From Candidatus Poribacteria bacterium (GTDB lineage: Bacteria > Poribacteria > WGA-4E > WGA-3G): a stretch of 64,000 nt of DNA. Shown one piece after another: positions 8,379 through 25,872 of this stretch. The first letter of the stretch is position 1; every line of letters starts with the position of its first letter. The notes below the pieces were generated by a model. That model did no database searches. It was not told the DNA's origin and saw nothing but the letters and a program-made list of their open reading frames with translations. The stretch spans positions 4,396,204-4,460,203 of the forward strand of contig OY282386.1 of the NCBI GenBank assembly GCA_958295945.1, written 5' to 3'. The translations under genes and the position numbers were made by a program.

Positions 8379-11291
8379 ATGAAAAATAAAGATTCAGAAC
8401 TGATTCAACGAACATTAGACGGTGACCAAACAGCATTTACATCATTAGTCGAAAAATACCAAAAAGGTGTTCACGCACTGGTATGGCAGAAAATAGGTGA
8501 TTTTCATATTGCCCAAGAAATCACACAAGATGCATTTTTGAAAGCATATCAAAAACTTGGAAGTTTGAAAAATCACAACCTATTCTCTGGATGGCTGTAT
8601 GTTATAGCCACACGCCTATGTTATAAATGGTGTAGAAAGAAACGTATACCTATACAATCCATAGAGACAGTTGATAGTAAAGAGGTAGACCAAGTGGCAT
8701 ATACATTTTATGTTGAAGAACAACGCAAATCAGATGCAGATGATGCACGAAGGGAATTAGTGCAAAATCTACTGAAGAAGCTACCAGAAAGTGAACGGAC
8801 AGTGATGACGCTACATTATCTTGGGGAAATGTCTTGTGAATCCATTAGTGAATTTCTTGGTGTATCCTCAAATACAATCAGAAGTCGACTTAGTCGCGCA
8901 CGTAACAGATTGAAAAAGGAAGAACTAATGATAAAAGAAAACCTAAGCAGTTTCCAACTACCGAGTCAAATGACAGAAAACATTATGAAGAAAATATCAC
9001 AATTGACACCGACTACTACGCCTATCAGTAAACCATTCGTTCCGTGGGTTTTGTCTGCTGCCTCTGCAATTTTTGTAGTTTTGTTGATGGGAGTAGGTGC
9101 GATGAAGTTTCATCAGTACCAAACCCCTTATAGCATAGATGCATCGTCTGAGTCTATGATTGAAATAGTTGATGTGCGAAATTTTGTGGAATCTCAAACA
9201 GAACCAACCAGACGAAACCATGTTGGTAAATCCAGCATACCTACCGAAAACAATGGTATTGGACTGAATTCTGAGGATTCTCTTTTTGCCGCAGCGAAAC
9301 AGGATCAGACAGAAGTCTCAAACGTAAAACAGAAGTGGGTACAAACAACAGGACCTGAAGGTGGGACTGTCCCTTCTTTGTTTCGAACGACACGCGGAGA
9401 CGTTTTTGCGGGAACACGAAACGGACTTTACAGACTGAATGATGATGGGACGGCATGGGAACTTATTAACAATATTGAGGGTCCAATTTATCACGGTGAA
9501 ATTAGCCGTTATTTATGGTGGCCTGTTGTAGAAAGGTATGAACACCTTTATCTTGCAAACGACACAGAGATATTGGTTTCAACAGATAGAGGAGAAACAT
9601 GGAAGTTTTTCTGCAAGTCAAAAGAGGGAACACCTATAGGCATTGTACTTGCAGACAGACTTCCAGATGCCAAAAGTGATCTTACGATTTATCTTGCGTT
9701 TCACGATGCAGTATTCCGATCAATTGACACGGGTAAGACTTGGATCGAACTGTCAAAAGGTTTGACAGATAGGAAAATCCGCTCAATCGCCGCCATTGAA
9801 AACACAGTTTTTGTCGGTACCAATGATGGTTTGTTCCGTTATGATCATGACAAATGGGAATTTGTGTCTATAACCCCAGAAGCAGATGCTAAAGACGATT
9901 CAATCCTTGATATGGTAGCAACCGAAAAGCATATTTATGTTGTAACAGGTCAAGAAAATAATTTTGCAGTCAGTAAGGATTCTATAATCTACATGTTGAG
10001 TCATAAGGGGTGGACTGTCTATCGATCTAATGACAATGGCAATACTTGGGATTGTATAGATCCAAGAGATCAGGACTCACATTTCAGAATGATGGGAAGT
10101 GGGATTGGATCAAGAATCACAGTTCAAGATGACAAAATATTATTAGTGGATGGTAGATATCATTATATTTCAAATGATGGTGGGGAAAACTGGATTTTAC
10201 CGGACTTAATTAACTCACCTGTTGTAGACAGCACTATGAGTATATTAATATATGACTCAAATACTTTCTATAAATCAGGTTATCAGGGAATTTATAGAAC
10301 TACAGAGGAAGTGAAGAACTGGCATCAATTCAATGCTGGTGTGATAGCAACTATGGTAATGGATGTTGTCTCTATGAAAGATATTCTTTATGTTCGAGTC
10401 GCAAATAAAGGTATCTTAGCGTCAATGGACTATGGGAAGTCCTGGGAACCTGTTGCGTTGTATGAGTATAGTGATAGTCGGATGGTTAACAATAATGGAG
10501 TTCTTTATGTATCTGAAGGAAACAATCCCATTTTACGTCTTTCAAATGAAGAAAATGAGCTAACGAATATTCAAGACATGCCAAAATTAATGATGTCTAA
10601 TGACCCTGGTTGGATTGAAATTGATACGCAGTCTACTCCCCAATTGGCGGTTAATAGTGATGACACTTCCGTCCACCGAGTTGAAATTAGAGAACCCGTT
10701 ATGATCTCAAATTATGCAGTCAGTAATTCAACATTCTATGTAGAGTTCAGAAACCAGTTATTGAGGTGGAAACCGGGTACTTCTGAATGGCACATTACTT
10801 CATTAAAGTATGAAGACAACGATAGGATGGTATATAACCCAAATTTTGAACTTGCAGTTTCAGGAAAGACCTTATATGTAGGAAAACAAGACGGTCAACT
10901 CCTGCAATCCTTTGATGAAGGTGATACCTGGAACAATGTTACTGAAAACCTGCCATTCTCAGTTGAGATTTTTCATGACATTACCTATCTTGAACAGAAT
11001 GTATATGTCGGAACTGATAAGGGTGTTGGACGATCGAACAATGGGATAGATTGGAAGATAGTCCCAGACATTGAAGGAAAACCGCTTGAAGTCATAAAGT
11101 TTGCTGTTGATGGAAATAGATTGTATGGCTTAGCAAAGAATACAGTCTATCAACTAAAAGAGGAACTTAGCACATGGAAAAAAGTCACTCCAGAAATCCC
11201 ATATTCCGTTACATGCTTAGATGTTGATGGGAGTAACGTCTATGTTGGAACTCTTGGAAAAGGTGTGCTTCGTTACGCTCTTGACAAATAG
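8379..11291 (+). CDS. Membrane-tethered ECF sigma factor with extracytoplasmic BNR beta-propeller (paralogue 1)
   Basis: 970 residues. Residues 12-85 are sigma70 region 2 (GDFHIAQEITQDAFLKAYQ, FSGWLYVIATR) and 125-183 are region 4 with an intact helix-turn-helix (SISEFLGVSSNTIRSRLSR). A conserved linker (FQLPSQMTENIMKK) leads to one membrane helix at about 221-242. The remaining 720 residues are predicted outside and hold Asp-box motifs of propeller blades: STDRGETW, SIDTGKTW, SNDNGNTW, SNDGGENW, SMDYGKSW, SFDEGDTW. Known ECF sigmas direct RNA polymerase to stress or envelope genes; here the outside sensor is fused to the sigma itself, so signalling may need proteolysis or clustering (inference). 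No anti-sigma gene is adjacent. ATG at 8379 follows GAGG. It is the most diverged of the three propeller paralogues. No sialidase catalytic residues are evident, so it is not an enzyme call. Confidence 0.9.
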   Translation: MKNKDSELIQRTLDGDQTAFTSLVEKYQKGVHALVWQKIGDFHIAQEITQDAFLKAYQKLGSLKNHNLFSGWLYVIATRLCYKWCRKKRIPIQSIETVDSKEVDQVAYTFYVEEQRKSDADDARRELVQNLLKKLPESERTVMTLHYLGEMSCESISEFLGVSSNTIRSRLSRARNRLKKEELMIKENLSSFQLPSQMTENIMKKISQLTPTTTPISKPFVPWVLSAASAIFVVLLMGVGAMKFHQYQTPYSIDASSESMIEIVDVRNFVESQTEPTRRNHVGKSSIPTENNGIGLNSEDSLFAAAKQDQTEVSNVKQKWVQTTGPEGGTVPSLFRTTRGDVFAGTRNGLYRLNDDGTAWELINNIEGPIYHGEISRYLWWPVVERYEHLYLANDTEILVSTDRGETWKFFCKSKEGTPIGIVLADRLPDAKSDLTIYLAFHDAVFRSIDTGKTWIELSKGLTDRKIRSIAAIENTVFVGTNDGLFRYDHDKWEFVSITPEADAKDDSILDMVATEKHIYVVTGQENNFAVSKDSIIYMLSHKGWTVYRSNDNGNTWDCIDPRDQDSHFRMMGSGIGSRITVQDDKILLVDGRYHYISNDGGENWILPDLINSPVVDSTMSILIYDSNTFYKSGYQGIYRTTEEVKNWHQFNAGVIATMVMDVVSMKDILYVRVANKGILASMDYGKSWEPVALYEYSDSRMVNNNGVLYVSEGNNPILRLSNEENELTNIQDMPKLMMSNDPGWIEIDTQSTPQLAVNSDDTSVHRVEIREPVMISNYAVSNSTFYVEFRNQLLRWKPGTSEWHITSLKYEDNDRMVYNPNFELAVSGKTLYVGKQDGQLLQSFDEGDTWNNVTENLPFSVEIFHDITYLEQNVYVGTDKGVGRSNNGIDWKIVPDIEGKPLEVIKFAVDGNRLYGLAKNTVYQLKEELSTWKKVTPEIPYSVTCLDVDGSNVYVGTLGKGVLRYALDK

Positions 11292-11427
11292 GACAACAAA
11301 ATTCTATGAGTTTAAGTAGACCTATTTTCTTATCAAATATGTTTAAATCAAACTTTGCATTTACATACTTCCAACCACATGATATAATATGAGAAAAACT
11401 ATATAAAAAATGCAGGATTTCTTTCCA

Positions 11428-12156
11428 ATGAAACATATACCAATCACACTTACTATAATAACCTTCGCTCTATTCATCAATCCAGATTCCATCGGTGATG
11501 AGGCACTATACGATTTTACCTTTGTCCGATTGAAATATAATGGTAGTTATCGGCATAAGAGTCTATGGGATATAGACTACCCCGCTGCAGACCGTAACCT
11601 ACTTACTCAACTTCGCAAACAGACAAACATAAAAGCAAGTCCACAAGAAACTATAATTGAGGTAGGTTCATCTGAACTATTTGACTATCCTTTTGCATAT
11701 ATTGCTGAATTGAGTAGACTTAACCTTTCCAAAAAAGAAGCTGCCAATCTCCGAGAATATCTTTTGCGTGGCGGATTTATCATGACAGATGATTTTCACG
11801 GAACAGCACAGTGGAAAAGATTTTATAAACAATACAAGAAAATCTTCCCAAAACGCGAACCGAGAGATATTCCGATGTCACACCCTCTCTTTGACTGCTT
11901 CTACAAAATTGAGAGACTAATGCAAATCCCTGCCCCTGCAGCCTATCGTGCAGGAAGAACACATGAAAAAGATGGTTTTAAAGTGCGGTGCATGGGTGTC
12001 TTTGATGACCATGGTCGAATTATGATGATGATAAACTTCAATACTGACTTAGGAGATGCATGGCAGAATGCAGCAGAGCCTTACTATCCTCGTAAGTTCT
12101 CAGACATGGCATTTCAAATGGGTATAAATGCTATTGTTTATACACTCACGCATTGA
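11428..12156 (+). CDS. Secreted DUF4159 domain protein
   Basis: About 242 residues from the ATG at 11428. The frame also has an ATG at 11410, but starting at 11428 puts a signal peptide (about 1-22) at the N terminus, and AGGA lies 12 bases before it. The rest matches the DUF4159 pattern: DYPAADRNLLTQL near the start, a helical stretch LREYLLRGGFIMTDDFHG, then a conserved IPMSHPLFDCFY and a C-terminal FQMGINAIVYTLTH. DUF4159 proteins are secreted or membrane-linked and of unknown role, often near MoxR/DUF58-type genes, which are not seen here. It sits between two sigma-sensor genes without obvious coupling: 165 bases follow it before the next promoter-bearing gene starts. Confidence 0.8.
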   Translation: MKHIPITLTIITFALFINPDSIGDEALYDFTFVRLKYNGSYRHKSLWDIDYPAADRNLLTQLRKQTNIKASPQETIIEVGSSELFDYPFAYIAELSRLNLSKKEAANLREYLLRGGFIMTDDFHGTAQWKRFYKQYKKIFPKREPRDIPMSHPLFDCFYKIERLMQIPAPAAYRAGRTHEKDGFKVRCMGVFDDHGRIMMMINFNTDLGDAWQNAAEPYYPRKFSDMAFQMGINAIVYTLTH

Positions 12157-12269
12157 GATATTGTTTTCATGTAGCACATATATATATTTCTTTTCTAACA
12201 AACCTCCTATTTGTTCATACTTATGCCTACCTAACATTTTCCACATAAAAATAACATTTATACCAAAAA

Positions 12270-12301
12270 GTGCAATTATTATCCTCAAAAAGGTGTCTAT
12301 A
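12270..12301 (+). promoter_or_regulatory. ECF-type promoter motif of sigma-sensor gene 2
   Basis: GTGCAA (12270-12275), 19-bp spacer, GTCTATA (12295-12301), followed by TATTAAAAG; 32 bases to the ATG at 12334. The closest match to the consensus of the five copies. Confidence 0.6.
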
Positions 12302-12333
12302 TATTAAAAGACTAAACGCATTTGAGGTGTGCA

Positions 12334-15225
12334 ATGAAAAACTTAGATTCTGATCTGATTCAAAAAACCGTAGCTGGAGATCAGGAAGCGTTTTCTGAAC
12401 TTGTGGAAAAATACCAAAAACAGATACACGCAATGGTGTGGCAGAAAGTCGGTGATTTCCATATTGCTCAGGAAATTACACAGGATGTATTCCTCACAGC
12501 GTACCACAAACTTTCTACACTCAAACACCATAACCGCCTCTCGGGATGGTTATATGTGATTGCAGATAACAAGTGCAAGAATTGGTTCAAAAAGAGAAGG
12601 TTAGAGTTTCAATCATTAGAAGAAACTGATCCTGTCGAATTAGAGGAGGTGTATTATTCAGAATATATGACACATCAACGAGAAGAAGCGGCAAATCAGA
12701 AAAGACGAGGAATAGTTCAGAAATTACTCAGTAAACTACCAGAGAGTGAACGAACAGTCGTAAATCTGTACTACATCGCCGAAATGACATGTGAAGATAT
12801 TGGTAAGTTTTTGGGAATGTCTCCCAACACGGTTCGTAGTAAACTTCATCGCGCACGCAACCGACTAAAGAAGGAAGAAGCAATGATTAAAGACAATCTT
12901 AGCAGTTTCCAACTACCAACGCAAATGACAGAACAAATCATGAAGAAGGTGTCAAGACTTATTCCAACAGTACCATCTGGAAACAAACCTTATATACCTT
13001 TAGCAGTATCTGCTGCATCAGCTATTTTAGTAGTGCTTCTATTGGGAGTGGGGGTACAGAACTTATTCCGTATTCAACAACCATATAGTTTGAATGCACA
13101 ATCAGAAAGAACGGTCGAAATCGTTGACGCACGAATAGTCTTTGAATCCCCTGTTAAGTCTGCAGTTAACAATCAAGTCAATCGTTCTGATGTGCTCAGT
13201 AAAAATGATGGAACGGTGCAGGAACCCGGGACATCTCAATTTGGTGCAGCACAGACGGATGATACTGAAAGAACTAATTTCAAAGGCACATGGAGACAGA
13301 CGAATGGTCCTTATGGTGGCAAGATAACAACGCTTTATAAAACCACTCATGGGGTGCTCCTTGCGGGGACAGAGGGGGCAGGTATTTTTCGCTCAACTGA
13401 TAATGGAAACAACTGGACACCAGTTAATACTGGATTACATAATGAACTAAATGGTCGATCCATGGAGGTTGCTGCAATCGCGGAAAAGGGGAATAAGATC
13501 TATGTTGGCGATTCGGAGGCATTTTACATTTCTACTGATATTGGCAACACCTGGCAATACGTATCTGGTATCCAAACCCATGTGAAAACCACTGGTATTG
13601 TGATTCTTGATGACGATATCTACGTTAGTACGTACTCCAATGGTGTTTGGCAGTCAAATGATGATAATTCATGGGTACAAATCAATGATGGACTCGGAAT
13701 AACGTTGTATGGGTATCTTTTAGACCCTTTAGACATCGACCCGCGTCTGGATCCTAATCCCTCTTCATTAAAACCGATCTATGTTTCTAAACTCTCTAGT
13801 CATGGGACAACGTTGGTTGCTACTACAAAGAAAGGACTCTTTCGTAAAATGGGTGATAAAGATTCGTGGACACTTATCAATCCAGTTGTCGTTGAGCTTT
13901 CAGATGGGGTTGAGTCGGAAAACAATTCGCAAGATAAACCAGAATCAAATCCTTCACCTAAGCAAGATTCTTCATCTGATTTACGTATTGAGTCGTTTGC
14001 TTCAATGAAACATTTACTTTTTGTAAGTGGATATATAGGGAAAAAATCTGGGATCTTCCGGTCAAATGACGTAGGGGAGACATGGATGCATATCATTCCA
14101 GAAAAAGTAAAAGAAGAGAGTGATGATGTTCAGACAATTGCCGTGCAAGGTGGGAGGCTATACGCCGGCACTGCTGACGGTTTGGTTTATCTTTCGGAGG
14201 ATATGGGTGATTCATGGATATCAATCAATGATGGGGTAATGCATGGTGAGGTTTCAACAGTGTTACCAATCAATGATAGGACTGTCTTCATAGGCACATC
14301 TAAAAATGGGGTCTTTCGCACAACAGATGCAGGGGATTCTTGGGTGGAATGTAACACTGGTATAATAAATACATCTGTCAGCAAATTAGATGTTATTGGT
14401 GATAAACTATACACTGTTGTTGGTAAAAAAATTGTCTATTCTGCTGACGGTGGAGGGACATGGCTGCCTATAGACGATCCTTCAAAGCAGAGCAAACGTG
14501 GTGTTAAAACCATTTGTGTATCAGATGGAGAACTCTACATCGGTGCTTACTTTGGTGATGATAAATATATTCCGCCTTTTTCAGGTCGTGAGGGTGATAG
14601 TGTTTACAGGTTGAATAGAAAAAATAACACTTTGGTTAAACTTTTCACAGATATGGACTTGTATGGACTTGTATGTATGGATGTAGTTGGCAATACATTT
14701 TATATGGGCGCAGCGTACAGAGGAGTCTTCCAGTGGGAGCAGAAAACGGGTCTTACCAAACTTGGCTTGGAACATCACTACATCTCAATGTTATCTGTAA
14801 ATAGTGAGAATGTGATTGCGGTTAATGGAGATAGAGGTGAAATCTACCGTTTTAAAGAGAATCGTTGGGAGCCTATTCACACAGCAGAAATTATTGATGG
14901 CGGTTTGTCTGATCTCAAATGGGTTGGTTCAACGCTATATGTAACCACTTGGAACAAGGGGGTATTTCGTTCCAAGGATGGAGGCGGGACTTGGACAACC
15001 ATCAACGATGGTCTGGATGAAACATCAGCTACATCAATTGGAACAGATGGTACTGAGGTGTATGTTAGCACATCTATAGGTGTTTTCCAATGGATAGAAG
15101 AGAAACAGCATTGGAAGTCAATTGGTTCTCTTACCCAGCAGGTTTCATCCTTAGCAGTAATTGACGGTTTTCTTTACGCTGGTACTTACAGTAGCGGGGT
15201 GTATAAAATTCCGATTGAGAAATAA
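12334..15225 (+). CDS. Membrane-tethered ECF sigma factor with extracytoplasmic BNR beta-propeller (paralogue 2)
   Basis: 963 residues from ATG 12334, which follows GAGGTG; the TTG at 12322 in the same frame is inside that ribosome-binding site. Sigma region 2 spans about 8-85 and region 4 about 125-183 (DIGKFLGMSPNTVRSKLHR). The membrane helix is at about 221-243, followed by a juxtamembrane segment SERTVEIVDARIVFES that recurs in the paralogues. The outside part is a multi-blade propeller with Asp boxes STDNGNNW, STDIGNTW, SNDVGETW, SEDMGDSW, TTDAGDSW, SADGGGTW and SKDGGGTW. The sensor is far closer to that of paralogue 3 than the sigma part is. Probable role: one-component transmembrane sensor and transcription factor. 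Ligand unknown; BNR propellers bind glycans or proteins in other systems. Confidence 0.9.
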   Translation: MKNLDSDLIQKTVAGDQEAFSELVEKYQKQIHAMVWQKVGDFHIAQEITQDVFLTAYHKLSTLKHHNRLSGWLYVIADNKCKNWFKKRRLEFQSLEETDPVELEEVYYSEYMTHQREEAANQKRRGIVQKLLSKLPESERTVVNLYYIAEMTCEDIGKFLGMSPNTVRSKLHRARNRLKKEEAMIKDNLSSFQLPTQMTEQIMKKVSRLIPTVPSGNKPYIPLAVSAASAILVVLLLGVGVQNLFRIQQPYSLNAQSERTVEIVDARIVFESPVKSAVNNQVNRSDVLSKNDGTVQEPGTSQFGAAQTDDTERTNFKGTWRQTNGPYGGKITTLYKTTHGVLLAGTEGAGIFRSTDNGNNWTPVNTGLHNELNGRSMEVAAIAEKGNKIYVGDSEAFYISTDIGNTWQYVSGIQTHVKTTGIVILDDDIYVSTYSNGVWQSNDDNSWVQINDGLGITLYGYLLDPLDIDPRLDPNPSSLKPIYVSKLSSHGTTLVATTKKGLFRKMGDKDSWTLINPVVVELSDGVESENNSQDKPESNPSPKQDSSSDLRIESFASMKHLLFVSGYIGKKSGIFRSNDVGETWMHIIPEKVKEESDDVQTIAVQGGRLYAGTADGLVYLSEDMGDSWISINDGVMHGEVSTVLPINDRTVFIGTSKNGVFRTTDAGDSWVECNTGIINTSVSKLDVIGDKLYTVVGKKIVYSADGGGTWLPIDDPSKQSKRGVKTICVSDGELYIGAYFGDDKYIPPFSGREGDSVYRLNRKNNTLVKLFTDMDLYGLVCMDVVGNTFYMGAAYRGVFQWEQKTGLTKLGLEHHYISMLSVNSENVIAVNGDRGEIYRFKENRWEPIHTAEIIDGGLSDLKWVGSTLYVTTWNKGVFRSKDGGGTWTTINDGLDETSATSIGTDGTEVYVSTSIGVFQWIEEKQHWKSIGSLTQQVSSLAVIDGFLYAGTYSSGVYKIPIEK

Positions 15226-15275
15226 ACTGTTTTTGGTAAACTATAAAGATATTTGGACACTTTCACCTGATAGTT

Positions 15276-15650: not shown

Positions 15651-15682
15651 GTGCAATTCTATATCACAAAATCGCGTTATTA
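15651..15682 (+). promoter_or_regulatory. ECF-type promoter motif of sigma-sensor gene 3
   Basis: GTGCAA (15651-15656), 19-bp spacer ending CGC, GTTATTA (15676-15682), 53 bases before the ATG at 15736. The -10 half is the most degenerate of the five. Confidence 0.45.
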
Positions 15683-15735
15683 ATTATAGAAGAGACTTTG
15701 TTTGTAATTCTATTTTTCTTTACCAAGGTGTACTT

Positions 15736-18648
15736 ATGATAAACGATGATTCTGAACTAATTCAACGCACATTAGAGGGTGATCAGCAGGCTTTTGCTTT
15801 ACTTGTAGAGAAATACCAAGAACAGGTACACACGCTTGCTTGGCAGAAAATTGGTGATTTTCACATCGCACAAGAAATTACACAAGATGTTTTCATCACT
15901 GCATATCAAAAATTCTCAGACCTCACGCACTACCGGCAATTTGCAGGTTGGCTTTATGTCGTTACAAACCGAAAGTGCATTGCCTGGCACCGGAAGAATA
16001 GAATTGAAACACAATCAATTGATGAAACAAATCCTGTTGAGTTGGAGGAGGCATATTATTCAGAATATATGACACATCAACGAGAAGAGGATGCAAAAGA
16101 GAAACGACGGAATATAGTTCAAAAACTGCTCAGTAAACTACAGGAAAGTGAACGTACAGTGATGAGTCTCTATTACATCGCAGAAATGTCCTGTGAAGAT
16201 ATTGGTAAGTTTTTGGGGGTATCTCCCAACACGGTTCGGAGTAAACTTCATCGTGCACGCAACCGACTAAAGAAGGAGGAAGCAGTGATACAAGAAAACC
16301 TTAGCAGTTTCCAACTGCCAACACAAATGACAGAAAACATCATGAAGGAAATATCACGTCTCAACCCAGTAACGCCATCAGGAAGTAAACCTTTTGTCCC
16401 TTTAGCAGTTTCTGCTGTCTCAGCCATTTTAGTTGTTCTACTAATAGGCTTTGGAACACAAAACCTAATTCGGTTTCAGAAGCCGTTTAGTTTGACTGCA
16501 CAATCTGAACGAACAGTTGAAATCGTTGATGCACGATTAGTCTTGGAAACCCCTGCTAAAGCAACAATTAACAATCAAGTTAGTCGTTCTGATGTGCTCA
16601 GTAACAATGATGGAACGGTGCAGGAACCCGGGACATCTCAATTTGGTGCAGCACAGACGGATGATACTGAAAGAAAGAATTTCAAAGGTACATGGAGACA
16701 GACGAATGGTCCTTACGGTGGTGAGATAACAACGCTTTATAAAACCACTCATGGCGTGCTCCTTGCTGGGACAGAGGAAGCAGGTATTTTCCGCTCAACT
16801 GATAATGGAAACAACTGGACACCAGTTAATACTGGGTTAATCAATAGAGGACGATTCAAGTATATTACTGCATTTGTTACTTCATTCGCGGAAAAGGGGA
16901 ATAATATCTATGTTGGCACGCGGGAGGGATTATACATTTCTACTGATATTGGCAACACCTGGCAACCCGTATCTGCGTTCCGAGTCCCTGGGCTGATCAG
17001 TGCCATTGATATTCTTGACATTGTTATTCTTGATGAGCATATCTACGTTAGTACAGGGATCTACGGTTTTTGGCAGTCAAATGATGGTAATTCATGGTCA
17101 CAAATCAATGATGGACTCGGAACAACGTTCCCTGGACTTCTCTTCGGGAACGACCCACGTCTGATTCATAATTTCGAGGATATAGAATCGATACTAACAC
17201 AGAGGAATGTCTTTAGTTTCTCAAGTCATGGGAGAACGTTGGTTGCTGCTACAAAAAAAGGACTCTTTCGCAGAACAGGGAAGGAAGACTCGTGGACACC
17301 TATCAAACCAGTTGTCGTTGAACATTCAGATGGGGTTGAATCGGAGAACACTTCGCAACATAAACCAGGATTAAATCCTTCACCTAAGCAACATTCTTCA
17401 TCTGATTTTCATGTTAAGTCGTTTGCTTCAATGAAACATGTACTTTATATGGATGGTAGGATGGGCAAAGAATATGGGATCTTCCGGTCAAATGACTTAG
17501 GCGACACATGGATGCTCATCACACCAGAAAAAGTAAAAGAAGAAAGTGATGGCGTTCGGACAATTGCCGTACAAGGTGGGAGGTTATACGCTGGTACTAC
17601 TGACGGTTTAGTTTATCTTTCGGAGGATATGGGTGATTCCTGGATACCAATCAATGATGGGGTAATGCATGGTAATGTATTATCGTTGTTACCAATCAAT
17701 GATAGGACTGTCTTCATAGGCACATCAAGAAATGGGGTCTTTCGCACAACAGATGCAGGGGATTCTTGGGTAGAATGTAACACTGGCATAATAAATACAT
17801 CTGTCAGCAAATTAGATGTTATTGGTGATAAACTATACACCGTTGTTGGTAGAAAAATTGTCTGTTCTGCTGACGGTGGAGGGACATGGCTGCCTATAAA
17901 CGATCCTTCAAAGCAGAGCAAACATGGTGTTCAAACTATTTGTGTATCAGATGGTGAGCTCTACGTCGCTGCTTACTTTGGTGATGATAAATTTATTCCG
18001 TCTCATTCAGGTGGTGAGGGTGATAGTGTTTACAGGTTGAATAGAGAAAACAACACTCTGGTTGAACTTTTCACAGATAGGGACTTGTATGGTATTGTAA
18101 GAATGGATGTAGTTGGCAATACATTTTATATGGGCACATGGGATAGTGGAGTTTTCCGGTGGGAGCAGAATATGGGTCTTACCCAATTTGGTTTGGAACA
18201 TCACAGGATCTCGATGTTATCTGCAAATAGTGAGAATGTGATTGCGGTTACTGGAGATAGTGAAATCTACCGTTTTAAAGAAAACCGTTGGGAGCCTATT
18301 CACACAGCAGAAATGGTTGATGGCGGTTTGTCTGATCTCAAATGGGTTGGTTCAACGCTATATGTAACCACTTGGAACAAAGGGGTATTTCGTTCCAAGG
18401 ATGGAGGCGGGACTTGGACATCCATCAACGATGGTCTGGATGAAACATCTGCTACATCAATAGGCACTGATGGTACTGAGGTGTATGTTAGCACATCTAC
18501 AGGTGTTTTCCAATGGATAGAAGAGAAACAGCATTGGAAGTCAATTGGTTCTCTTACACAACGGATTTCATCTTTAGCAGTCGTTGACGGTTTTCTTTAC
18601 GCTGGTACATCCAATAGCGGCGTGTATAAAATTCCGATTGAGAAATAA
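15736..18648 (+). CDS. Membrane-tethered ECF sigma factor with extracytoplasmic BNR beta-propeller (paralogue 3)
   Basis: 970 residues. The frame opens at 15649, but the ATG at 15736 is right because AAGGTG precedes it and the protein then aligns with its paralogues from residue 1. Sigma region 2 (about 8-85), region 4 (about 125-183, DIGKFLGVSPNTVRSKLHR), membrane helix (about 221-243) and the juxtamembrane SERTVEIVDARLVLE are all present. The propeller is nearly the same as in paralogue 2 from the juxtamembrane segment to the C terminus (last residues SGVYKIPIEK in both), except for a variable stretch of about 100 residues after the first blades. That variable stretch is a candidate for the ligand-contact region. 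Likely a membrane sensor that is also the transcription factor. Confidence 0.9.
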   Translation: MINDDSELIQRTLEGDQQAFALLVEKYQEQVHTLAWQKIGDFHIAQEITQDVFITAYQKFSDLTHYRQFAGWLYVVTNRKCIAWHRKNRIETQSIDETNPVELEEAYYSEYMTHQREEDAKEKRRNIVQKLLSKLQESERTVMSLYYIAEMSCEDIGKFLGVSPNTVRSKLHRARNRLKKEEAVIQENLSSFQLPTQMTENIMKEISRLNPVTPSGSKPFVPLAVSAVSAILVVLLIGFGTQNLIRFQKPFSLTAQSERTVEIVDARLVLETPAKATINNQVSRSDVLSNNDGTVQEPGTSQFGAAQTDDTERKNFKGTWRQTNGPYGGEITTLYKTTHGVLLAGTEEAGIFRSTDNGNNWTPVNTGLINRGRFKYITAFVTSFAEKGNNIYVGTREGLYISTDIGNTWQPVSAFRVPGLISAIDILDIVILDEHIYVSTGIYGFWQSNDGNSWSQINDGLGTTFPGLLFGNDPRLIHNFEDIESILTQRNVFSFSSHGRTLVAATKKGLFRRTGKEDSWTPIKPVVVEHSDGVESENTSQHKPGLNPSPKQHSSSDFHVKSFASMKHVLYMDGRMGKEYGIFRSNDLGDTWMLITPEKVKEESDGVRTIAVQGGRLYAGTTDGLVYLSEDMGDSWIPINDGVMHGNVLSLLPINDRTVFIGTSRNGVFRTTDAGDSWVECNTGIINTSVSKLDVIGDKLYTVVGRKIVCSADGGGTWLPINDPSKQSKHGVQTICVSDGELYVAAYFGDDKFIPSHSGGEGDSVYRLNRENNTLVELFTDRDLYGIVRMDVVGNTFYMGTWDSGVFRWEQNMGLTQFGLEHHRISMLSANSENVIAVTGDSEIYRFKENRWEPIHTAEMVDGGLSDLKWVGSTLYVTTWNKGVFRSKDGGGTWTSINDGLDETSATSIGTDGTEVYVSTSTGVFQWIEEKQHWKSIGSLTQRISSLAVVDGFLYAGTSNSGVYKIPIEK

Positions 18649-19128
18649 ATCGTCCATAATTGTCTATCTGATATGTTGTAGCCTATTCTTGGTAGATATT
18701 TGAATTAATTCAACCTAATCATCTGTAGGATTCATTAATTACACAGTTCTGATTCAAACAACCCCCCTACCCCCCTTATCAAGGGGAATCGGTAGATTCA
18801 TTAATTACACAGTTCTGATTCAAACCCTTTTTTGTTCAACTTCATCAGATCGTCAAACACAGCAATTGCTATAAATTTCAACAAGTATGCAACTTTTTTC
18901 TGTTTTATTTGTATATTTTAGTAAAAAGTGCAACCTTTTTCCGAAGTTATGTCTCTTTAATTACAGAGACACAAAAAGTCTGAAAGAATTGATTGTAAAC
19001 TTCAACTAATTTGATATAGTTATAATGAACACAATAGTGTTTGATATGTCTAATGATTAACCAAGAGAAAAACAATAGTTTCACTCCCAGTGATGACTGG
19101 ACGAACAATGGACAATAGGGAGAACATT
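18649..19128. other. Intergenic region with direct repeats
   Basis: A 33-bp direct repeat, GATTCATTAATTACACAGTT and following bases, occurs at about 18729 and 18794, separated by a CCCCCTTATCAAGGGG stretch like the core of the 163-bp element. GTGCAACC...GTCTCTT at 18928-18957 resembles the sigma-sensor promoters but with a 17-bp spacer. No gene seen. Confidence 0.5.
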
Positions 19129-19410
19129 ATGCTAAAAGATTTTTCAATAGAAAACTGGATTGTCGGTGGAACTGCATTTATACTGATTTTCACAATCGGA
19201 TGTTTTGTATGGTTTCAATTTCAGATGTCTACCATAGAAATATATGATAGCAATCAAGAAGAGGTTACCCAACCCATTGATGAAACATCAGACACAGATC
19301 ATCTGGAAATCCGACATATAGAGATTCATGATACAGAGGACAACGATACAACTGGAAAAAATAGCACTGATACTGAAACCATAGACGATGAATCTACAGA
19401 GGTTACTTAA
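19129..19410 (+). CDS. Small single-pass membrane protein with acidic tail
   Basis: 93 residues from the ATG at 19129, which has GGGAG 7-8 bases before it; in-frame ATGs at 19093 and 19108 lack such a site. A short N-terminal segment is followed by one membrane helix (about residues 10-30) and a very acidic, Thr/Asp/Glu-rich tail. The residues just after the helix, STIEIYDSNQEE, resemble the juxtamembrane segment of the sigma-sensor proteins (SERTIEITDARQ), so it might be a relic or a partner of that family; this is inference. It lies between sigma-sensor genes 3 and 4 and has its own terminator. No known family. Confidence 0.55.
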   Translation: MLKDFSIENWIVGGTAFILIFTIGCFVWFQFQMSTIEIYDSNQEEVTQPIDETSDTDHLEIRHIEIHDTEDNDTTGKNSTDTETIDDESTEVT

Positions 19411-19576: not shown

Positions 19577-19642
19577 TCAGTTATCAATTTCTATGCTATC
19601 ATTATTATAAATCTTCTCAAGATTTAAATATTTCCTAAAAAT

Positions 19643-19805
19643 AACGTGAGTTTGATAATTATACAGGACAGACGCATTCCCCCTTGATAAGGGGGTTAGG
19701 GGGTTAAAAAGTCGCTATTTCAGTGATTTAACCCCCTAAATCCCCCTTATCAGTGGGACTTTAAGAGGCAATGTGGAAGTCATAACTATTTATCAAACTC
19801 ACGTT
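19643..19805. mobile_element. 163-bp MITE-like element, copy B, with empty site nearby
   Basis: Terminal repeats AACGTGAGTTTGATAA (19643-19658) and its reverse complement (19790-19805). Flanked by AAAAAT at 19637-19642 and 19806-19811. The duplicated upstream region at 23708-23722 has the unfilled site CCTAAAAATAATACA with a single AAAAAT, proving insertion with a 6-bp target duplication. An internal inverted repeat (CCCCCTTGATAAGGGGG... against ...CCCCCTTATCAGTGGG) would let it fold into a long hairpin. Confidence 0.9.
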
Positions 19806-19820
19806 AAAAATAATACAAAA

Positions 19821-19852
19821 GTGCAACCTTCCATATCCAATTAGCATCTATA
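19821..19852 (+). promoter_or_regulatory. ECF-type promoter motif of sigma-sensor gene 4
   Basis: GTGCAA (19821-19826), 19-bp spacer, ATCTATA (19846-19852), 33 bases before the ATG at 19886. The MITE copy B ends only 15 bases upstream of the -35 half and leaves it intact. Confidence 0.6.
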
Positions 19853-19885
19853 TGTTAAAAGAAGACGAAGATAGTGAGGTACAAC

Positions 19886-21982
19886 ATGAAACAAAGTGAT
19901 TCTGAACTGGTCAAACAAACACTTGCGGGGGATCAACAAGCGTTTGCATTGCTTGTTGAAAAATATCAAGAACAGATACATACGCTTGCATGGCAGAAGA
20001 TTGGTGATTTCCATACTGCGGAAGAGATAACACAAGATGCTTTTATTACTGCATATCAGAAACTCAACAGTCTGAAGCATCCACACCGTTTTTCTGGTTG
20101 GTTATATGTTATTACCACCAATATATGTAACATGTGGCACCGAAAGAAAAAGCCACAGTTAGAATCCTTAGAACAAACTGATCCTATGGAGTTGGAAGAG
20201 GTGTATTATACTGAATATAAGACACAAGAACGCGAAGAGGAGAGAAAGGAGAATCAAAGGTCAGTAGTTAGAAAACTGCTTAGTAGCCTAAAAGAAAGTG
20301 ATCGTACGGTGGTAACGATGCATTACCTTGCAGGATTATCATGTGAAGAGATCGGTGAATTCCTCGGTGTATCAACAAATACTGTCAAGAGTCGTCTACA
20401 TCGCGCAAGGAATCGCCTCAAAGGTGAAGAAGCACTTATTCAGGAAAACTTAGGCAGTTTCCAATTACCAAAGCAATTATCTGAGAATATCATGAAAGAA
20501 ATCTCCAACTTATCTCCGGCAGCTCCTTCAGCAAGTAAACCGGTAATGCCGTGGATAGTTTCTTCAGCATCAGCAATTATCGTATTTCTATTGATCGGTG
20601 TTGGGGCAAAACAACTAATCCATTTTCAAAAGCCATTCAGTATTGACGCAGACTCTGAACGGACGATTGAAATAACAGATGCAAGACAAGTGATAGATTC
20701 TGCTGAGAAACCAGCTGTGCGAAATCAAATGGGACGACCAGATGCTCAAGCAAAAGACATTAATGCAGTTAACAGTCCAAATGCACCAACTGCAGATGCG
20801 TCACAGACCGATGCAGACAATATTGCACAAGTCCAGACCATATCTCAAGAGGGTGCAACATCTATCTCAGGCAGAGTCATTGACGGCAATGGCAAAGTTG
20901 TTCCAGGACTTGCACTTACCATTAAACCGTTAGAACGCAATCAAGATAACCAACCTATACCGTCATCTGAATGGAATCAGGTAACAACCGATAAACAAGG
21001 TGCTTTTACTTTTACCAACATTAGTCCTGGAAAATCACAATTCGTTTTACTACCAGAAGGCGGTGCAGATTATTCAATCGCATCACTTAACATTGGATTT
21101 GTCACTTTATTTCCTCCTGGAATCCAATCGTATAAACCAGACTGGTTTGGCAAACTAACCTTTGTCGTTGAGGAGCGTACACCTCTTGAGAACATCGTTG
21201 TAACAGTGAAACCTCCACTCAGATCAATTAGGGGAAGGATATTTCAAAGGGATGGTTCACCACTTGCCAATGCTCAAGTAATCTTAACAATAAAGGAACG
21301 CGTGCGTGAAACATTTCTTTACTTTTTTACTAATAGTTCAATAATGACTGAATCAGGTGCACAAACTACGACAGATTCTCAAGGTTACTTCGTAGAATAT
21401 CTTAGAAATATACCACAACCGAAAGCTGAGTTTGCAGTTAATGTAGAATATCGTGGCGCAACAGCGAAATCAAGATGGTTCCGTTTGGAAAAAGGACAAA
21501 GGGGCGATAAGCTTGTTTTCAAACTGAGAGGAATAAAAAAGCAGGAGAAAAAACGTGAGGATTATTTGAAAGTTCTTCAAGCGAAATGGTCTGTCAATCC
21601 TGAAAATGGTCACGCTTACAGAAGAATTCAATGTGATAGTTGGGATGATGCAAAAGCCATAGCCGATGTTGAAAACGCATATCTCGTTACCATAAATGAT
21701 GAAGCTGAACAGAAATGGTTGGAATCTCGATTTACTAATCGAAAGTTTTTCTGGATAGGCTTACGTTCAACGCAGGAAGGTGCATTCCAAAAGTGGCACA
21801 ACGGGGATCCACTGACCTACACGAATTGGCTTAGAAAAGATAATACTGTTAACGAAGCATACACGCCTGTTGCACTTGATTTCTTTTCAAAAAGATGGAT
21901 GATATTGGGTTCGAAGAATAAATTCCTGCCTCTTGTTAAGAACGCTATTCTGGAAAAAGAGGATATAAAGATCAAGAAGTAG
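19886..21982 (+). CDS. Membrane-tethered ECF sigma factor with C-type-lectin-like sensor (paralogue 4)
   Basis: 698 residues from ATG 19886 (GTGAGGT upstream). Sigma region 2 is at about 8-85, region 4 at about 125-183 (EIGEFLGVSTNTVKSRLHR), and a membrane helix at about 222-243. Outside: the shared SERTIEITDARQ segment, a flexible linker, two carboxypeptidase-regulatory-like beta-sandwiches (about 326-392, SISGRVIDGNGKVVPG; about 447-510, IRGRIFQRDGSPLANAQV), and a C-type-lectin-like domain (about 567-693) with WSVNPENGHAYRRIQC, AYLVTINDEAEQKWLE and FFWIGLRS. The lectin fold keeps one of its usual cysteines and lacks the last, so no classical disulfide pair. Followed 34 bases later by a secreted lectin companion, presumably in the same operon. 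Ligand unknown; carbohydrate or protein binding is plausible for the fold. Confidence 0.9.
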   Translation: MKQSDSELVKQTLAGDQQAFALLVEKYQEQIHTLAWQKIGDFHTAEEITQDAFITAYQKLNSLKHPHRFSGWLYVITTNICNMWHRKKKPQLESLEQTDPMELEEVYYTEYKTQEREEERKENQRSVVRKLLSSLKESDRTVVTMHYLAGLSCEEIGEFLGVSTNTVKSRLHRARNRLKGEEALIQENLGSFQLPKQLSENIMKEISNLSPAAPSASKPVMPWIVSSASAIIVFLLIGVGAKQLIHFQKPFSIDADSERTIEITDARQVIDSAEKPAVRNQMGRPDAQAKDINAVNSPNAPTADASQTDADNIAQVQTISQEGATSISGRVIDGNGKVVPGLALTIKPLERNQDNQPIPSSEWNQVTTDKQGAFTFTNISPGKSQFVLLPEGGADYSIASLNIGFVTLFPPGIQSYKPDWFGKLTFVVEERTPLENIVVTVKPPLRSIRGRIFQRDGSPLANAQVILTIKERVRETFLYFFTNSSIMTESGAQTTTDSQGYFVEYLRNIPQPKAEFAVNVEYRGATAKSRWFRLEKGQRGDKLVFKLRGIKKQEKKREDYLKVLQAKWSVNPENGHAYRRIQCDSWDDAKAIADVENAYLVTINDEAEQKWLESRFTNRKFFWIGLRSTQEGAFQKWHNGDPLTYTNWLRKDNTVNEAYTPVALDFFSKRWMILGSKNKFLPLVKNAILEKEDIKIKK

Positions 21983-22016
21983 AAAAAATCGTAACATTAC
22001 ATAATAGGGACACATA

Positions 22017-23471
22017 ATGATTACATTCAATTCAAAAAAGCACTTCATTCTGTTGTTTGCACTCGCTCTTATATTTACATTCGGTATAACATTCTATGGA
22101 AACACAGATGAAGAAACATCAAGTCTGTCTGGAGTCATAACAGATCTCAAAGGGGAACCAATTGCTGATGCAACCGTTATCCTCCTTGCTGTTGAAATCA
22201 ACATATTTAGCAGAACAATTGATCCAATTTACGACATCAAGACATATCCATTCCGCATTCTTCGACACCCACCATCAAATGTTATCAAGAAACAGGATGG
22301 TTCGGGCAAGAAAAAACGTCCACCCTATCTTGAAGCTAAATCCGATTCTGAAGGTAAGTTCACATTTAACAATATAACTCCAGGTGTAGTGCAGATTTTA
22401 GTTCTACCAGAAACACCACCTGAGAATGATACAGCACCTACAGAATCAACAAAAAGGAAGTATAAACACCTACCAAGAATCCACTCAATAAAATTCGCTC
22501 AAGCTACTATTATTCCACATCAATACGCATACTTTCCATCTTTTGGTGCGGTAACATTCACCGTCACGCCTGGATCAAATATGGAGAATGTGCACCTCAT
22601 GGTAACTATGGTGAACCCATTAAAGATTCGTGGAAAAATAGTATTTGATAATGGTGAACCACTATCAAATGCCTCTGTTATAGTCGAATTTGCTGCACTA
22701 AATCGTTACTCTGTCAACTATTATTCTTATGATCAACATGTCCATGTCCAAACAGATGAAAACGGAATCTTTGAATATAGTTTTTACACGCCAGGAATCT
22801 TGGCATTCTCTGTTAAACATCGTGGACTTTCAGGTGCCTCTGAACCTTTCCTGCTTGCAGGTAATTTTGAACCTAATTTGCTTTCAGGTGATAAGTCTAC
22901 TGATATTATCCCGTTATCTCTCAATGGGAATTCAACAGAGCTTAATGAAATACAAGAGAAAAACCAGAGAGATCAACACGAACATTTTGGGAGTCTATCT
23001 CACATACAAGGAGTATGGATATTAAATCCAACAAATGGACACTTATATAAACGGATATTTTGCAGCAGTAGAGAAGATGCTGTAGAAAAAGCATCTCTTG
23101 AGAATGCCTATCTTGTTACAATTACTAATGAAGCAGAACAGAAATGGCTTGAGTCTATATTTGGTCACAACGAATACTGGATAGGTTTGACGGATGCTGA
23201 GAAAGAAGGCAAATGGAAATGGGACTCTGGTGAACGATTCAGATATCAGAACTGGAACATGGACAAGTTCTATCGTAGAGAACCTATTTTTCAAGGATTA
23301 TTTGGTTTTAATAGAACAAGGAAACAACGTTTAAATAGTAAGAATACAGATTATGTTATCATGAGAAATCATGATGTATATATGAAATGGGAAACTGTGG
23401 ATTATCGTCACTCCGAAAAAGGGTATACAAGATTTGCAGTCATTGAAAAACCATCAAATAAAATAAAGTAG
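22017..23471 (+). CDS. Secreted carboxypeptidase-regulatory-like and C-type-lectin-like protein (companion 1)
   Basis: 484 residues. A signal peptide or membrane anchor covers about residues 8-28. Two regulatory-like beta-sandwiches follow (LSGVITDLKGEPIADATV from about residue 40; IRGKIVFDNGEPLSNASV near 205), then a C-type-lectin-like domain from about 337: WILNPTNGHLYKRIFC, AYLVTITNEAEQKWLES, YWIGLTDAEKEGKWKWDSG and a C-terminal YTRFAVIEKP. It has the sensor architecture of the upstream sigma-lectin protein but no sigma factor. It starts 34 bases after that gene and is followed by a terminator, so the two form an operon. It could be a soluble co-receptor, decoy or heterodimer partner of the sigma-lectin protein (inference). 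Confidence 0.85.
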   Translation: MITFNSKKHFILLFALALIFTFGITFYGNTDEETSSLSGVITDLKGEPIADATVILLAVEINIFSRTIDPIYDIKTYPFRILRHPPSNVIKKQDGSGKKKRPPYLEAKSDSEGKFTFNNITPGVVQILVLPETPPENDTAPTESTKRKYKHLPRIHSIKFAQATIIPHQYAYFPSFGAVTFTVTPGSNMENVHLMVTMVNPLKIRGKIVFDNGEPLSNASVIVEFAALNRYSVNYYSYDQHVHVQTDENGIFEYSFYTPGILAFSVKHRGLSGASEPFLLAGNFEPNLLSGDKSTDIIPLSLNGNSTELNEIQEKNQRDQHEHFGSLSHIQGVWILNPTNGHLYKRIFCSSREDAVEKASLENAYLVTITNEAEQKWLESIFGHNEYWIGLTDAEKEGKWKWDSGERFRYQNWNMDKFYRREPIFQGLFGFNRTRKQRLNSKNTDYVIMRNHDVYMKWETVDYRHSEKGYTRFAVIEKPSNKIK

Positions 23472-23508
23472 CCACATTTTCAATACGGAAACCATAGATA
23501 TTCCTGTA

Positions 23509-23540
23509 AGGTGAGAACTTTGTTTCTCACCTTTTTTCTT
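23509..23540 (+). terminator. Intrinsic terminator of sigma-lectin operon 1
   Basis: AGGTGAGAA (23509-23517) pairs with TTCTCACCT (23524-23532), followed by TTTTTTCTT. The equivalent hairpin ends the second operon at 27358-27389. Confidence 0.85.
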
Positions 23541-23563
23541 TAATAGAACTAATAGCATTTCTA

Positions 23564-23631
23564 TAAATATTTGTCCTATTAACATTTGTTAAGAATGTCT
23601 TGAACGACGGTACAAACTGGCAGTTTGTGCT
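23564..23631. mobile_element. Family 2 MITE, left part only
   Basis: Begins GCATTTCTATAAATATTTG and runs to CAGTTTGTGCTA, matching the left two thirds of the copies at 15369 and 27403. It is cut off at the duplication breakpoint, where ATGCGTGCC follows. Confidence 0.75.
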
Positions 23632-23725
23632 ATGCGTGCCTTTCTTTTTGTCAGTTATCAATTTCTATGCTATCATTATTATAAATCTTCTCAAGATTTA
23701 AATATTTCCTAAAAATAATACAAAA

Positions 23726-23757
23726 GTGAAACCTTCCACATCCAAATAGCATCTTTA
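23726..23757 (+). promoter_or_regulatory. ECF-type promoter motif of sigma-sensor gene 5
   Basis: GTGAAA (23726-23731), 19-bp spacer, ATCTTTA (23751-23757), 33 bases before the ATG at 23791. It differs from the gene 4 motif at one base in each half. Confidence 0.55.
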
Positions 23758-23790
23758 TGTTAAAAGAAGACAAAGATTGTGAGGTGCAAC

Positions 23791-25872
23791 ATGAAACAAA
23801 GTGATTCTGAACTGGTCAAACAAACACTTGCGGGGGATCAACAAGCGTTTGCATTGCTTGTTGAAAAATATCAAGAACAGATACATACGCTTGCATGGCA
23901 GAAGATTGGTGATTTCCATACTGCGGAAGAGATAACACAAGATGCTTTTATTACTGCATATCAGAAACTCAACAGTCTGAAGCATCCACACCGTTTTTCT
24001 GGTTGGTTATATGTTATTACCACGAATATATGTAACATGTGGCACCGAAAGAAAAAGCCACAGTTAGAATCCTTAGAACAAACTGATCCTATGGAGTTGG
24101 AAGAGGTGTATTATACTGAATATAAGACACAAGAACGCGAAGAGGAGAGAAAGGAGAATCAAAGGTCAGTAGTTAGAAAACTGCTTAGTAGACTAAAAGA
24201 AAGTGATCGTACGGTGGTAACGATGCATTACCTTGCAGGATTATCATGTGAAGAGATCGGTGAATTCCTCGGTGTATCAACAAATACTGTCAAGATTCGT
24301 TTACATCGCGCACGCAATCGCCTCAAAGGTGAAGAAGCACTTATTCAGGAAAACTTAGGCAGTTTCCAATTACCAAAGCAATTACCTGAGAATATCATGC
24401 AAGAAATCTCCAACTTATCTCCGGCAGCTCCTTCAGCAAGTAAACCGGTAATGCCGTGGATAGTTTCTTCAGCATCAGCAATTACCGTATTTCTATTGAT
24501 CGGTGTTGGAGCAAAACAACTCATCCATTTTCAAAAGCCATTCAGTATTGACGCAGCATCGGAACGGACGATTGAAATAACAGATGCAAGACAAGTGATA
24601 GATTCTGCTGAGAAACCGGCTGTGCGAAATCAGGTTGGACGTGCCAATAATCCAGATACGAAGAATGAAATTGCACAGAACACGGATGTTTCTGATGTCA
24701 ACCCACATCAGACAAATTCAACAAAAAAAGCTATACAAAATAATCTACTTGATAAAGGAAAAACATCACTATCAGGAGTAGTTGTAGGGACAAATGGTGA
24801 TGTTATACGAGGACTGGAACTTTACTTTAAACCAATTGAATTTAATCAAAGAAATGAGGTAGTACCGCGAATTCCTTTGTCCAACTGGACACGTGCAATT
24901 ACGGATACACAAGGTGGGTTTTCATTTTCTAACATTGATGCAGTGTCATCGCAGTTAGTTATTCTCCCCGAAGCTACACCAGAATATGAGATCGTATCGA
25001 TTAAAGTTAGAGATTTGACCTATTATCCACCTATGCCACACCCAAATCTTGGGTATTGGTTTGGTAAACCAACTATATCAATTGAGCCAGATATACCACT
25101 TGAAGATACAGTGGTAACCGTAAAACCATCTCCAATGCAAATTAGGGGGAGGATACTCTTAAAAGACAAAACTCCTCTTGCTAATGCACAATTTAGACTT
25201 ACTACAGAGTATCGAGATAGAGATACATTTCTATATTTCTTTACTGAAAGCGAAAGTAGAGGTAAATCAATTAGAGATGCAAAAACAGATTCACAAGGTT
25301 ATTTTGTTGCCTTTTATCGTGCATGGGAAACTGAGTATTATGTCTCTATAGAATACAAAGGAGAAACAGTTAAATCCAGATGGTTTAAGGTAAAACCTGG
25401 ACAGCAAAATGATGTCCACATATTTAGACTGAAGCATACAGAGACATTTCAAAATAATATGAGAAAACGCATAAATGCACGACAAGCAATATGGTCAGTT
25501 AATCCTGAAAATGGACATGCTTACAAAAGAATTCAATGTGAGAGTTGGCATGACGCAAAATTAAAAGCTGCAGCGGAAAATGCATATCTGGTGGCTGTTA
25601 GTAATGAAGGTGAACAGAGATGGTTGGAAGGTAGATTCGCTGAAAATAAATTCTACTGGATTGGGTTAAGTTCAACACAAGATGGATCATCTTGGCAGTG
25701 GGAAAACGGGGAATCCCTTACTTACACAAATTGGTTAGAGGATATTGATTCTAATCACACGCCTAAAATTCCTGTTGCAATGGATTTTTTCTCAAAAAGA
25801 TGGATGGCTATAGGTAAGGATAGTCACTTTAAGAGTAGTATTAAACACGCTATTATTGAAAGGGAAGATTAA
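23791..25872 (+). CDS. Membrane-tethered ECF sigma factor with C-type-lectin-like sensor (paralogue 5)
   Basis: 693 residues from ATG 23791 (GTGAGGT upstream). The first 280 residues (sigma regions 2 and 4, membrane helix, juxtamembrane SERTIEITDARQVIDS) are nearly identical to paralogue 4. One visible change is in the region 4 recognition helix: NTVKIRLHR instead of NTVKSRLHR. After residue 285 the two proteins diverge strongly though they keep the same domain order: two regulatory-like domains (SLSGVVVGTNGDVIRG, IRGRILLKDKTPLANAQF) and a C-type-lectin-like domain (WSVNPENGHAYKRIQC, FYWIGLSSTQ). The sharp change in identity suggests that the sensors are under diversifying change or that the sigma halves are kept alike by recombination. 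The companion gene starts 37 bases after the stop. Confidence 0.9.
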   Translation: MKQSDSELVKQTLAGDQQAFALLVEKYQEQIHTLAWQKIGDFHTAEEITQDAFITAYQKLNSLKHPHRFSGWLYVITTNICNMWHRKKKPQLESLEQTDPMELEEVYYTEYKTQEREEERKENQRSVVRKLLSRLKESDRTVVTMHYLAGLSCEEIGEFLGVSTNTVKIRLHRARNRLKGEEALIQENLGSFQLPKQLPENIMQEISNLSPAAPSASKPVMPWIVSSASAITVFLLIGVGAKQLIHFQKPFSIDAASERTIEITDARQVIDSAEKPAVRNQVGRANNPDTKNEIAQNTDVSDVNPHQTNSTKKAIQNNLLDKGKTSLSGVVVGTNGDVIRGLELYFKPIEFNQRNEVVPRIPLSNWTRAITDTQGGFSFSNIDAVSSQLVILPEATPEYEIVSIKVRDLTYYPPMPHPNLGYWFGKPTISIEPDIPLEDTVVTVKPSPMQIRGRILLKDKTPLANAQFRLTTEYRDRDTFLYFFTESESRGKSIRDAKTDSQGYFVAFYRAWETEYYVSIEYKGETVKSRWFKVKPGQQNDVHIFRLKHTETFQNNMRKRINARQAIWSVNPENGHAYKRIQCESWHDAKLKAAAENAYLVAVSNEGEQRWLEGRFAENKFYWIGLSSTQDGSSWQWENGESLTYTNWLEDIDSNHTPKIPVAMDFFSKRWMAIGKDSHFKSSIKHAIIERED

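Follow-up and report, generated by a model that had tools for sequence, protein, structure and literature searches.

Most ECF sigma factors require a partner anti-sigma. In the Candidatus Poribacteria DNA analysed here (a stretch of 64,000 nucleotides, hereafter the window, from a genome that forms a single 5.34 Mb contig), an earlier note had described an array of five proteins in which sigma factor and outside sensor are joined across the membrane and no separate anti-sigma is in sight. How could a sigma factor that is part of its own receptor be kept silent, and how would it reach a promoter?

Architecture of the array

The genes, promoters and segments of the locus are collected in Table 1. 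In Pfam searches, Sigma70_r2 and Sigma70_r4_2 scored above cut-off in all five array proteins, so that the five paralogues with sigma regions 2 and 4 were recovered where the earlier note had placed them. The sigma part has regions 2 and 4 only, an ECF-like length of ~180 aa and full-length relatedness to SigW, AlgU and RpoE, which assigns it to the ECF sigma factors. C-terminal to it, Pfam placed VPS10/BNR-type propellers in array proteins 1-3 and Lectin_C above cut-off in array proteins 4 and 5; CarboxypepD_reg was above cut-off in the product of 19886-21982 (51.5 bits) and just under it in that of 23791-25872 (27.1 bits vs a cut-off of 32.3). The large C-terminal domains previously read from the sequence are thus present, one CarboxypepD_reg being sub-threshold; sugar binding by the two C-type lectins is putative.

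Table 1. Features of the array locus, with positions counted from the first nucleotide of the window
Feature	Position	Strand	Remarks
ECF-type promoter ATGCAACA-N15-CGCGTCTAATTA	8312..8346	+	ends 32 bp 5' of ATG 8379
sigma-receptor 1	8379..11291	+	ECF sigma aa 1-181, linker 182-219, TM 224-242, BNR/VPS10 propeller; 970 aa
conserved linker helices, sigma-receptor 1	8922..8999	+	aa 182-207, pLDDT ~90
predicted transmembrane helix, sigma-receptor 1	9048..9104	+	aa 224-242; low pLDDT
DUF4159 protein	11410..12156	+	118 bp 3' of sigma-receptor 1, same strand
ECF-type promoter GTGCAATT-N14-GGTGTCTATATA	12270..12303	+	30 bp 5' of ATG 12334; weaker match
sigma-receptor 2	12334..15225	+	BNR propeller type, 963 aa
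ECF-type promoter GTGCAATT-N14-CGCGTTATTAAT	15651..15684	+	51 bp 5' of ATG 15736; weak match
sigma-receptor 3	15736..18648	+	BNR propeller type, 970 aa
candidate ECF-type promoter	18928..18961	+	17.5 bits; 5' of small single-TM protein 19090-19410
ECF-type promoter GTGCAACC-N14-AGCATCTATATG	19821..19854	+	31 bp 5' of ATG 19886
sigma-receptor 4	19886..21982	+	CarboxypepD_reg (prealbumin-like) + C-type lectin ectodomain, 698 aa
sigma-less CarboxypepD_reg + C-type-lectin protein	22017..23471	+	N-terminal hydrophobic segment; 34 bp 3' of sigma-receptor 4
ECF-type promoter GTGAAACC-N14-AGCATCTTTATG	23726..23759	+	31 bp 5' of ATG 23791
sigma-receptor 5	23791..25872	+	CarboxypepD_reg (sub-threshold) + C-type lectin ectodomain, 693 aa
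sigma-less CarboxypepD_reg + C-type-lectin protein	25910..27310	+	466 aa from ATG; 37 bp 3' of sigma-receptor 5

Each of the five proteins has a single main hydrophobic helix, with its hydropathy peak at residues 220-242 (helices were called from hydropathy, not by a trained predictor); in one of them a second, weak peak appears at 414. The helix follows the sigma part after a linker of 38 residues and lies at the same position in 78 of 79 relatives. Nearly all relatives conserve a linker motif before it, LTENIM...SKPxxP, and an outer juxtamembrane motif after it, xxxFQKPYSLxAxSExTVExVDA. The N-terminal flank of the helix carries more positive net charge than the C-terminal flank in 92 of 97 family members, as expected for an N-in topology with the sigma part inside. 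The single helix near residue 222, and the N-in orientation predicted with it, agree with these results, and that receptor and sigma form one polypeptide is likewise supported.

For sigma-receptors 2-5 we preferred the improved start codons ATG 12334, 15736, 19886 and 23791 because the common promoter ends shortly upstream of them, at the distances given in Table 1; at 15736, a TTG start further 5' would place the promoter within the reading frame. The DUF4159 gene is a possible operon member with sigma-receptor 1, and the two sigma-less proteins, which have the same architecture as the tails of sigma-receptors 4 and 5 (CarboxypepD_reg + lectin), are likely operon partners of these receptors. 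The small single-TM protein encoded between sigma-receptors 3 and 4 belongs to a family (ENWIVGGTAFILIFTIGCFVWFQ) seen near sigma fusions, another member being the L035 gene 48 bp after 10080. Elsewhere in the window, an open reading frame of 3202 aa spans 52164-61772.

Pfam found neither zf-HC2 nor any other anti-sigma domain in the five array proteins, and an anti-sigma gene is absent from the array locus. The genome has seven zf-HC2 matches, six above cut-off and one below, and by coordinate comparison each directly adjoins the gene of a short, soluble ECF (as at 274841-275368 and 275425, and at 1957261-1957818 and 1957859), so that canonical pairs and fused receptors coexist in this genome. 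None of these genome-wide matches, which cover the zf-HC2 type only, lies beside a fused sigma gene. The claim that the locus holds no separate anti-sigma is accordingly upheld. We also considered whether the linker conceals an anti-sigma domain and rejected this: Pfam found none, the zf-HC2 proteins of the genome are without the LTENIM motif, and a full class I domain would not fit into 38 residues.

A phylum-wide family with a common promoter

A sigma-linker query returned 43 matches in the genome. Eighteen proteins have the complete sigma-TM-ectodomain layout, with ectodomains of BNR (8), WD40 (5), CarboxypepD_reg + lectin (2), CarboxypepD_reg (1) and M16-peptidase (1) type and one truncated; a further five from this sigma clade are helix-less and carry other fusion partners, including WD40, crystallin and the DnaN clamp. 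The membrane helix is thus kept at the same place in 18 of 23 fused proteins. The best 79 loci in GTDB genomes are all from Poribacteria, with ectodomains that by similarity are BNR-like in 65 and WD40-like in 9, and the family has matches in 85 of 85 Poribacteria genomes, many of them with at least 32 copies. Given the 18 proteins in this genome and the presence of the family in every poribacterial genome, the array is not a chance arrangement. The "array of five" stands as far as the genes are concerned; they are just one cluster within a far larger set that also has soluble members.

Just 5' of the start of nearly every fused gene lies an ECF-type promoter with the consensus ATGCAACC-N15-CGCGTCAYTATA, which can also be written ATGCAACC-N14/15-CGCGTC-AYTATA, TGCAACC-N15-CGCGTC or ATGCAACC-N15-CGCGTCATTATA. 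It was found upstream of 21 of the 23 fused genes, ending 19-55 bp before the start codon, with a mean of 23.5 bits vs 11.9 +/- 0.6 (maximum 13.4) for shuffled upstream regions taken through the same procedure, and most sites hold in leave-one-out. Applied unaltered to the relatives, the matrix trained on this genome only gave sites of at least 15 bits before 63 of 76 of their genes vs 12 of 272 control ORFs, 8 of these 12 being sigma fusions themselves. A pattern search of the whole genome yielded 16 sites, 12 of them before fused sigma genes; the reversed pattern gave 3. This search is the unbiased counterpart of a matrix scan of 2.46 Mb (~46% of the genome, including all family loci and hence not blind), in which 16 of 17 sites of at least 22 bits precede the family's own genes. 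We rejected a wider regulon in this genome, as sites below 22 bits in the 2.46 Mb look like chance; almost no target besides the sigma genes themselves was found here.

The AAC-containing -35 and CGTC-type -10 elements before the genes are those of ECF promoters, with recognition by the protein's own sigma putative. The simplest reading of the pattern is that each fused sigma factor activates its own gene and those of the others, although a promoter common to close paralogues partly reflects common descent. STAS proteins (anti-anti-sigma type) encoded near sigma fusions have the same promoter 74-124 bp upstream (L065, L068, L070, L071, L086), which makes their genes candidate targets. Strong copies in relatives also precede genes for a lipoprotein of ~610-630 aa, a secreted LamG-like protein and TPR proteins (L077/L083 at ~2.5 kb, L110 complement, L057/L067).

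Compared with the nearest relatives, the sigma part (residues 1-180) has dN/dS values of 0.04-0.18, lower than most of those for the ectodomains of the same proteins (0.16-0.50), and is under purifying selection. Because of this selection and of the promoter before nearly every fused gene, the fused proteins are probably working sigma factors and probably self-activating; the earlier view that the sigma part is intact holds, and it looks functional. A loss of sigma function, with the module reduced to an anchor of surface proteins that is attached to the membrane and binds DNA or RNAP, is very improbable against such strong selection over regions 2 and 4, complete Pfam matches and a conserved ECF-type promoter, even if natural sigma-less versions that keep the promoter and membrane part imply that the tail alone can be useful. 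Two genes in this genome have lost the sigma and keep a promoter-proximal or membrane part. One, L032:11273-13884 (G000:C1:3044273-), is a natural sigma deletion in which the promoter and first sigma codons are followed by an RBS-like AGGAGG, an ATG and an intact linker-TM-WD40 frame; from this sequence, the receptor without sigma is apparently still made.

Sigma and sensor parts have evolved differently. Sigma-receptors 4 and 5 share 97-100% DNA identity over the first 240 codons vs 38-58% amino-acid identity across most of the ectodomain, and in a tandem pair at 776-781 kb a near-identical sigma-TM cassette likewise gives way to divergent sensors. The pattern is consistent with gene conversion or cassette exchange, by which one output would be kept while sensors diversify. 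Separately, another gene lies 57 bp 5' of the sigma-TM fusion at L038:8328-11942. The M16-peptidase-like domain begins in closely similar fashion in both (VTRFTLSNGIRVV), as though a duplicate had acquired the cassette; comparable pairs occur at other loci. At the sigma-linker junction, GAG-GAA is over-represented among the KKEE(A/T/P)M codons, creating a Shine-Dalgarno-like AAGGAGGAA ahead of an internal Met that is often present; GAG-GAA is used in 44 of 71 cases at the KKEE-M site, more commonly than at other EE sites. A possible internal start there would make a sigma-free receptor; with the Met present in only 52 of 84, we left this as an idea.

Such homogenised cassettes with divergent tails would also fit a promiscuous sigma-TM module that spreads by recombination, the tails being cargo rather than sensors and activity following mainly from expression level (autoregulation) and turnover. 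The very different fusion partners (propellers, M16 protease, crystallin, DnaN, FtsZ), the unfused copies of several partners adjoining a fused gene and the members without a membrane helix point the same way. We nevertheless hold this account to be improbable: propellers and lectins are classic ligand-binding domains, the helix keeps its place in this genome and in the relatives, and the ectodomains are under constraint by dN/dS.

Proposed release from the membrane

The first 290 residues of sigma-receptor 1 were modelled with AlphaFold2 from 71 sequences. Most of the sigma reached a pLDDT of 92-97 and the linker helices were nearly as well resolved, with the membrane segment resolved poorly. 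In Foldseek comparisons (target-normalised), the arrangement of sigma2 and sigma4 was closest to anti-sigma-bound ECFs, with TM 0.71 for CnrH/CnrY and 0.62 for SigW/RsiW, and further from RNAP-bound ECFs (about 0.35-0.45). A model of sigma-receptor 4 ranked the ECF structures in the same way, the two models together giving 0.69-0.71 for CnrH/CnrY, ~0.6 for SigW/RsiW and ~0.4 for RNAP-bound ECFs; its ectodomain matches prealbumin/pilin-like surface folds, with no confident fold in the lectin ectodomain beyond residue ~617. The models suggest that the linker holds the sigma closed; the closed arrangement may be biased, since AlphaFold knows free ECFs mostly from complexes with anti-sigmas.

We favour the reading, at a probability of roughly 0.6, that these proteins are one-component sigma receptors, latent at the membrane, released by proteolysis and self-activating. 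A cytoplasmic ECF sigma would be joined through the 38-residue linker and one membrane helix to an exchangeable ligand-binding domain outside, a propeller or lectin. At rest, the sigma would be kept at the membrane and inactive through tethering, the conserved linker probably packing on sigma2/sigma4 like a minimal anti-sigma peptide. A signal on the ectodomain would then lead to cleavage near the membrane, by a site-1 and then an M50/RseP-type protease, and the freed sigma would drive TGCAACC-N15-CGCGTC promoters, first those of the receptor genes and their operon partners, resulting in positive feedback. This genome, like those of most bacteria, encodes an M50 site-2 protease. Since the five helix-less members of the same clade mostly have the same promoter, membrane release is not the mechanism for the whole clade.

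The choice posed in the earlier note, proteolysis or transcription at the membrane, is reasonable as a hypothesis. Regulated proteolysis appears the likeliest release route by analogy. Alternatively, the sigma might stay attached: ligand would alter the linker, the sigma would open, and RNAP and promoter would be recruited to the membrane, after the model of one-component membrane regulators of the ToxR/CadC type. The sigma domains, juxtamembrane motifs and promoter suit this equally, a long extended linker with its SKPxxP motif could reach DNA, and no protease gene adjoins the array. We regard activation in the tethered state as rather unlikely all the same, for a sigma has to travel with RNAP at least through initiation, and for the fused ECF IutY release by RseP has been published (PMC8999054). 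The conservation on both sides of the helix suits a protease site, and also any coupling function.

Known fused sigma factors and the reach of the family

In the RsgI/SigI system of Clostridium thermocellum, an extracellular carbohydrate-binding sensor controls a sigma across one membrane helix, RsgI being a separate anti-sigma protein; in the poribacterial proteins, sensor and sigma are fused. Fusions have been published before. ECF52 (SCO4117, Streptomyces) and ECF48/ECF53, all actinobacterial, combine an N-terminal ECF sigma and a membrane helix in one polypeptide, with a zinc-finger anti-sigma domain between them, an extracytoplasmic carbohydrate-binding domain in ECF52, and release by proteolysis proposed (PMC8999054, PMC5826349). 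The proteins described here resemble ECF52 in uniting sigma, membrane helix and a predicted external domain, but have only the ~38-residue linker in place of the zinc finger (zf-HC2 absent by Pfam), use propellers or CarboxypepD_reg + lectin as sensors and number dozens per genome; ECF52 is restricted to Actinobacteria, whereas the best 79 relatives here are poribacterial throughout.

IutY (ECF243) of Pseudomonas putida, a sigma/anti-sigma fusion that crosses the membrane, is driven by a siderophore receptor and released by Prc and RseP (PMC8999054). It shares with our proteins a sigma fused to a membrane-crossing part, but differs in its sensors and in its fused anti-sigma domain, which Pfam did not find in the array proteins; no TonB receptor of the kind that partners IutY was recognised among the array genes. 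The ECF-WD40 proteins of planctomycetes have WD40 propellers C-terminal to an ECF sigma, many paralogues, and occur in detergent-soluble fractions (PMC8567305). Propeller placement and paralogue number are similar here, but the array five use BNR or lectin domains instead of WD40, which other family members in the genome do have; the poribacterial members share one conserved TM and the promoter.

Our literature search found no description of the poribacterial family; by term counts, WD40 proteins appear in the single-cell genome paper PMC3909097 and sigma factors do not. The earlier note, aware of ECF groups with C-terminal extensions, had taken the lectin/propeller arrangement as unknown, which is too strong. 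Fused membrane ECFs (ECF52, IutY) and ECF-WD40 are already published (PMC8999054, PMC5826349, PMC8567305), so we regard the family as a variant and not a wholly new class. What is new is the lack of a recognisable anti-sigma (zinc-finger) domain, the mix-and-match sensors, the phylum-wide expansion and the shared promoter.

Related fusions of an ECF sigma to DnaN and FtsZ are soluble and, unexpectedly, conserved across genera. G000:C1:2523253-2524989 (L041:1250-2989:-) encodes an ECF sigma fused to a complete DnaN clamp with all three domains; it has full-length homologues in about 30 Poribacteria genomes of two genera, and the TGCAACC-CGCGTC promoter is present in this genome and in 3 of 5 relatives read. 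G000:C1:2181501-2183291 (L047:9501-11294:+) encodes a fusion to FtsZ (GTPase + C-terminal domains), conserved in about 40 genomes; many of these frames run on to 1350-1450 aa. In the one examined, the continuation is DnaE (PHP and Pol III alpha), which makes L270:1486-4764 a triple fusion, sigma-FtsZ-DnaE. This genome also encodes an ordinary FtsZ, two ordinary DnaN and one DnaE as separate genes. In ~12 genomes, sigma-DnaN has a second, shorter sigma-FtsZ-like gene as a neighbour within roughly 3-10 kb (~410 aa frame; for example, G081 591053 and 601565, G083 1589101 and 1584506), which suggests a conserved cluster.

Tentatively, and with more doubt than confidence, the fused ECFs could form a general one-component class, in which a shared cassette and promoter on surface receptors and on DnaN/FtsZ(-DnaE) serve an overlapping, self-activating regulon without anti-sigmas. 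If so, surface signals and the state of replication and division would feed one regulon. With receptor, anchor and sigma in one gene, promoters that follow a readable code and tens of paralogues in each genome, the family would represent a minimal chain from surface to promoter, in which a single molecule could sense a signal and turn on genes, its own included. It provides self-contained parts for engineered sensing and, because the regulon can be tested from the promoter motif without growing the organism, a route to what uncultured sponge-associated Poribacteria sense.
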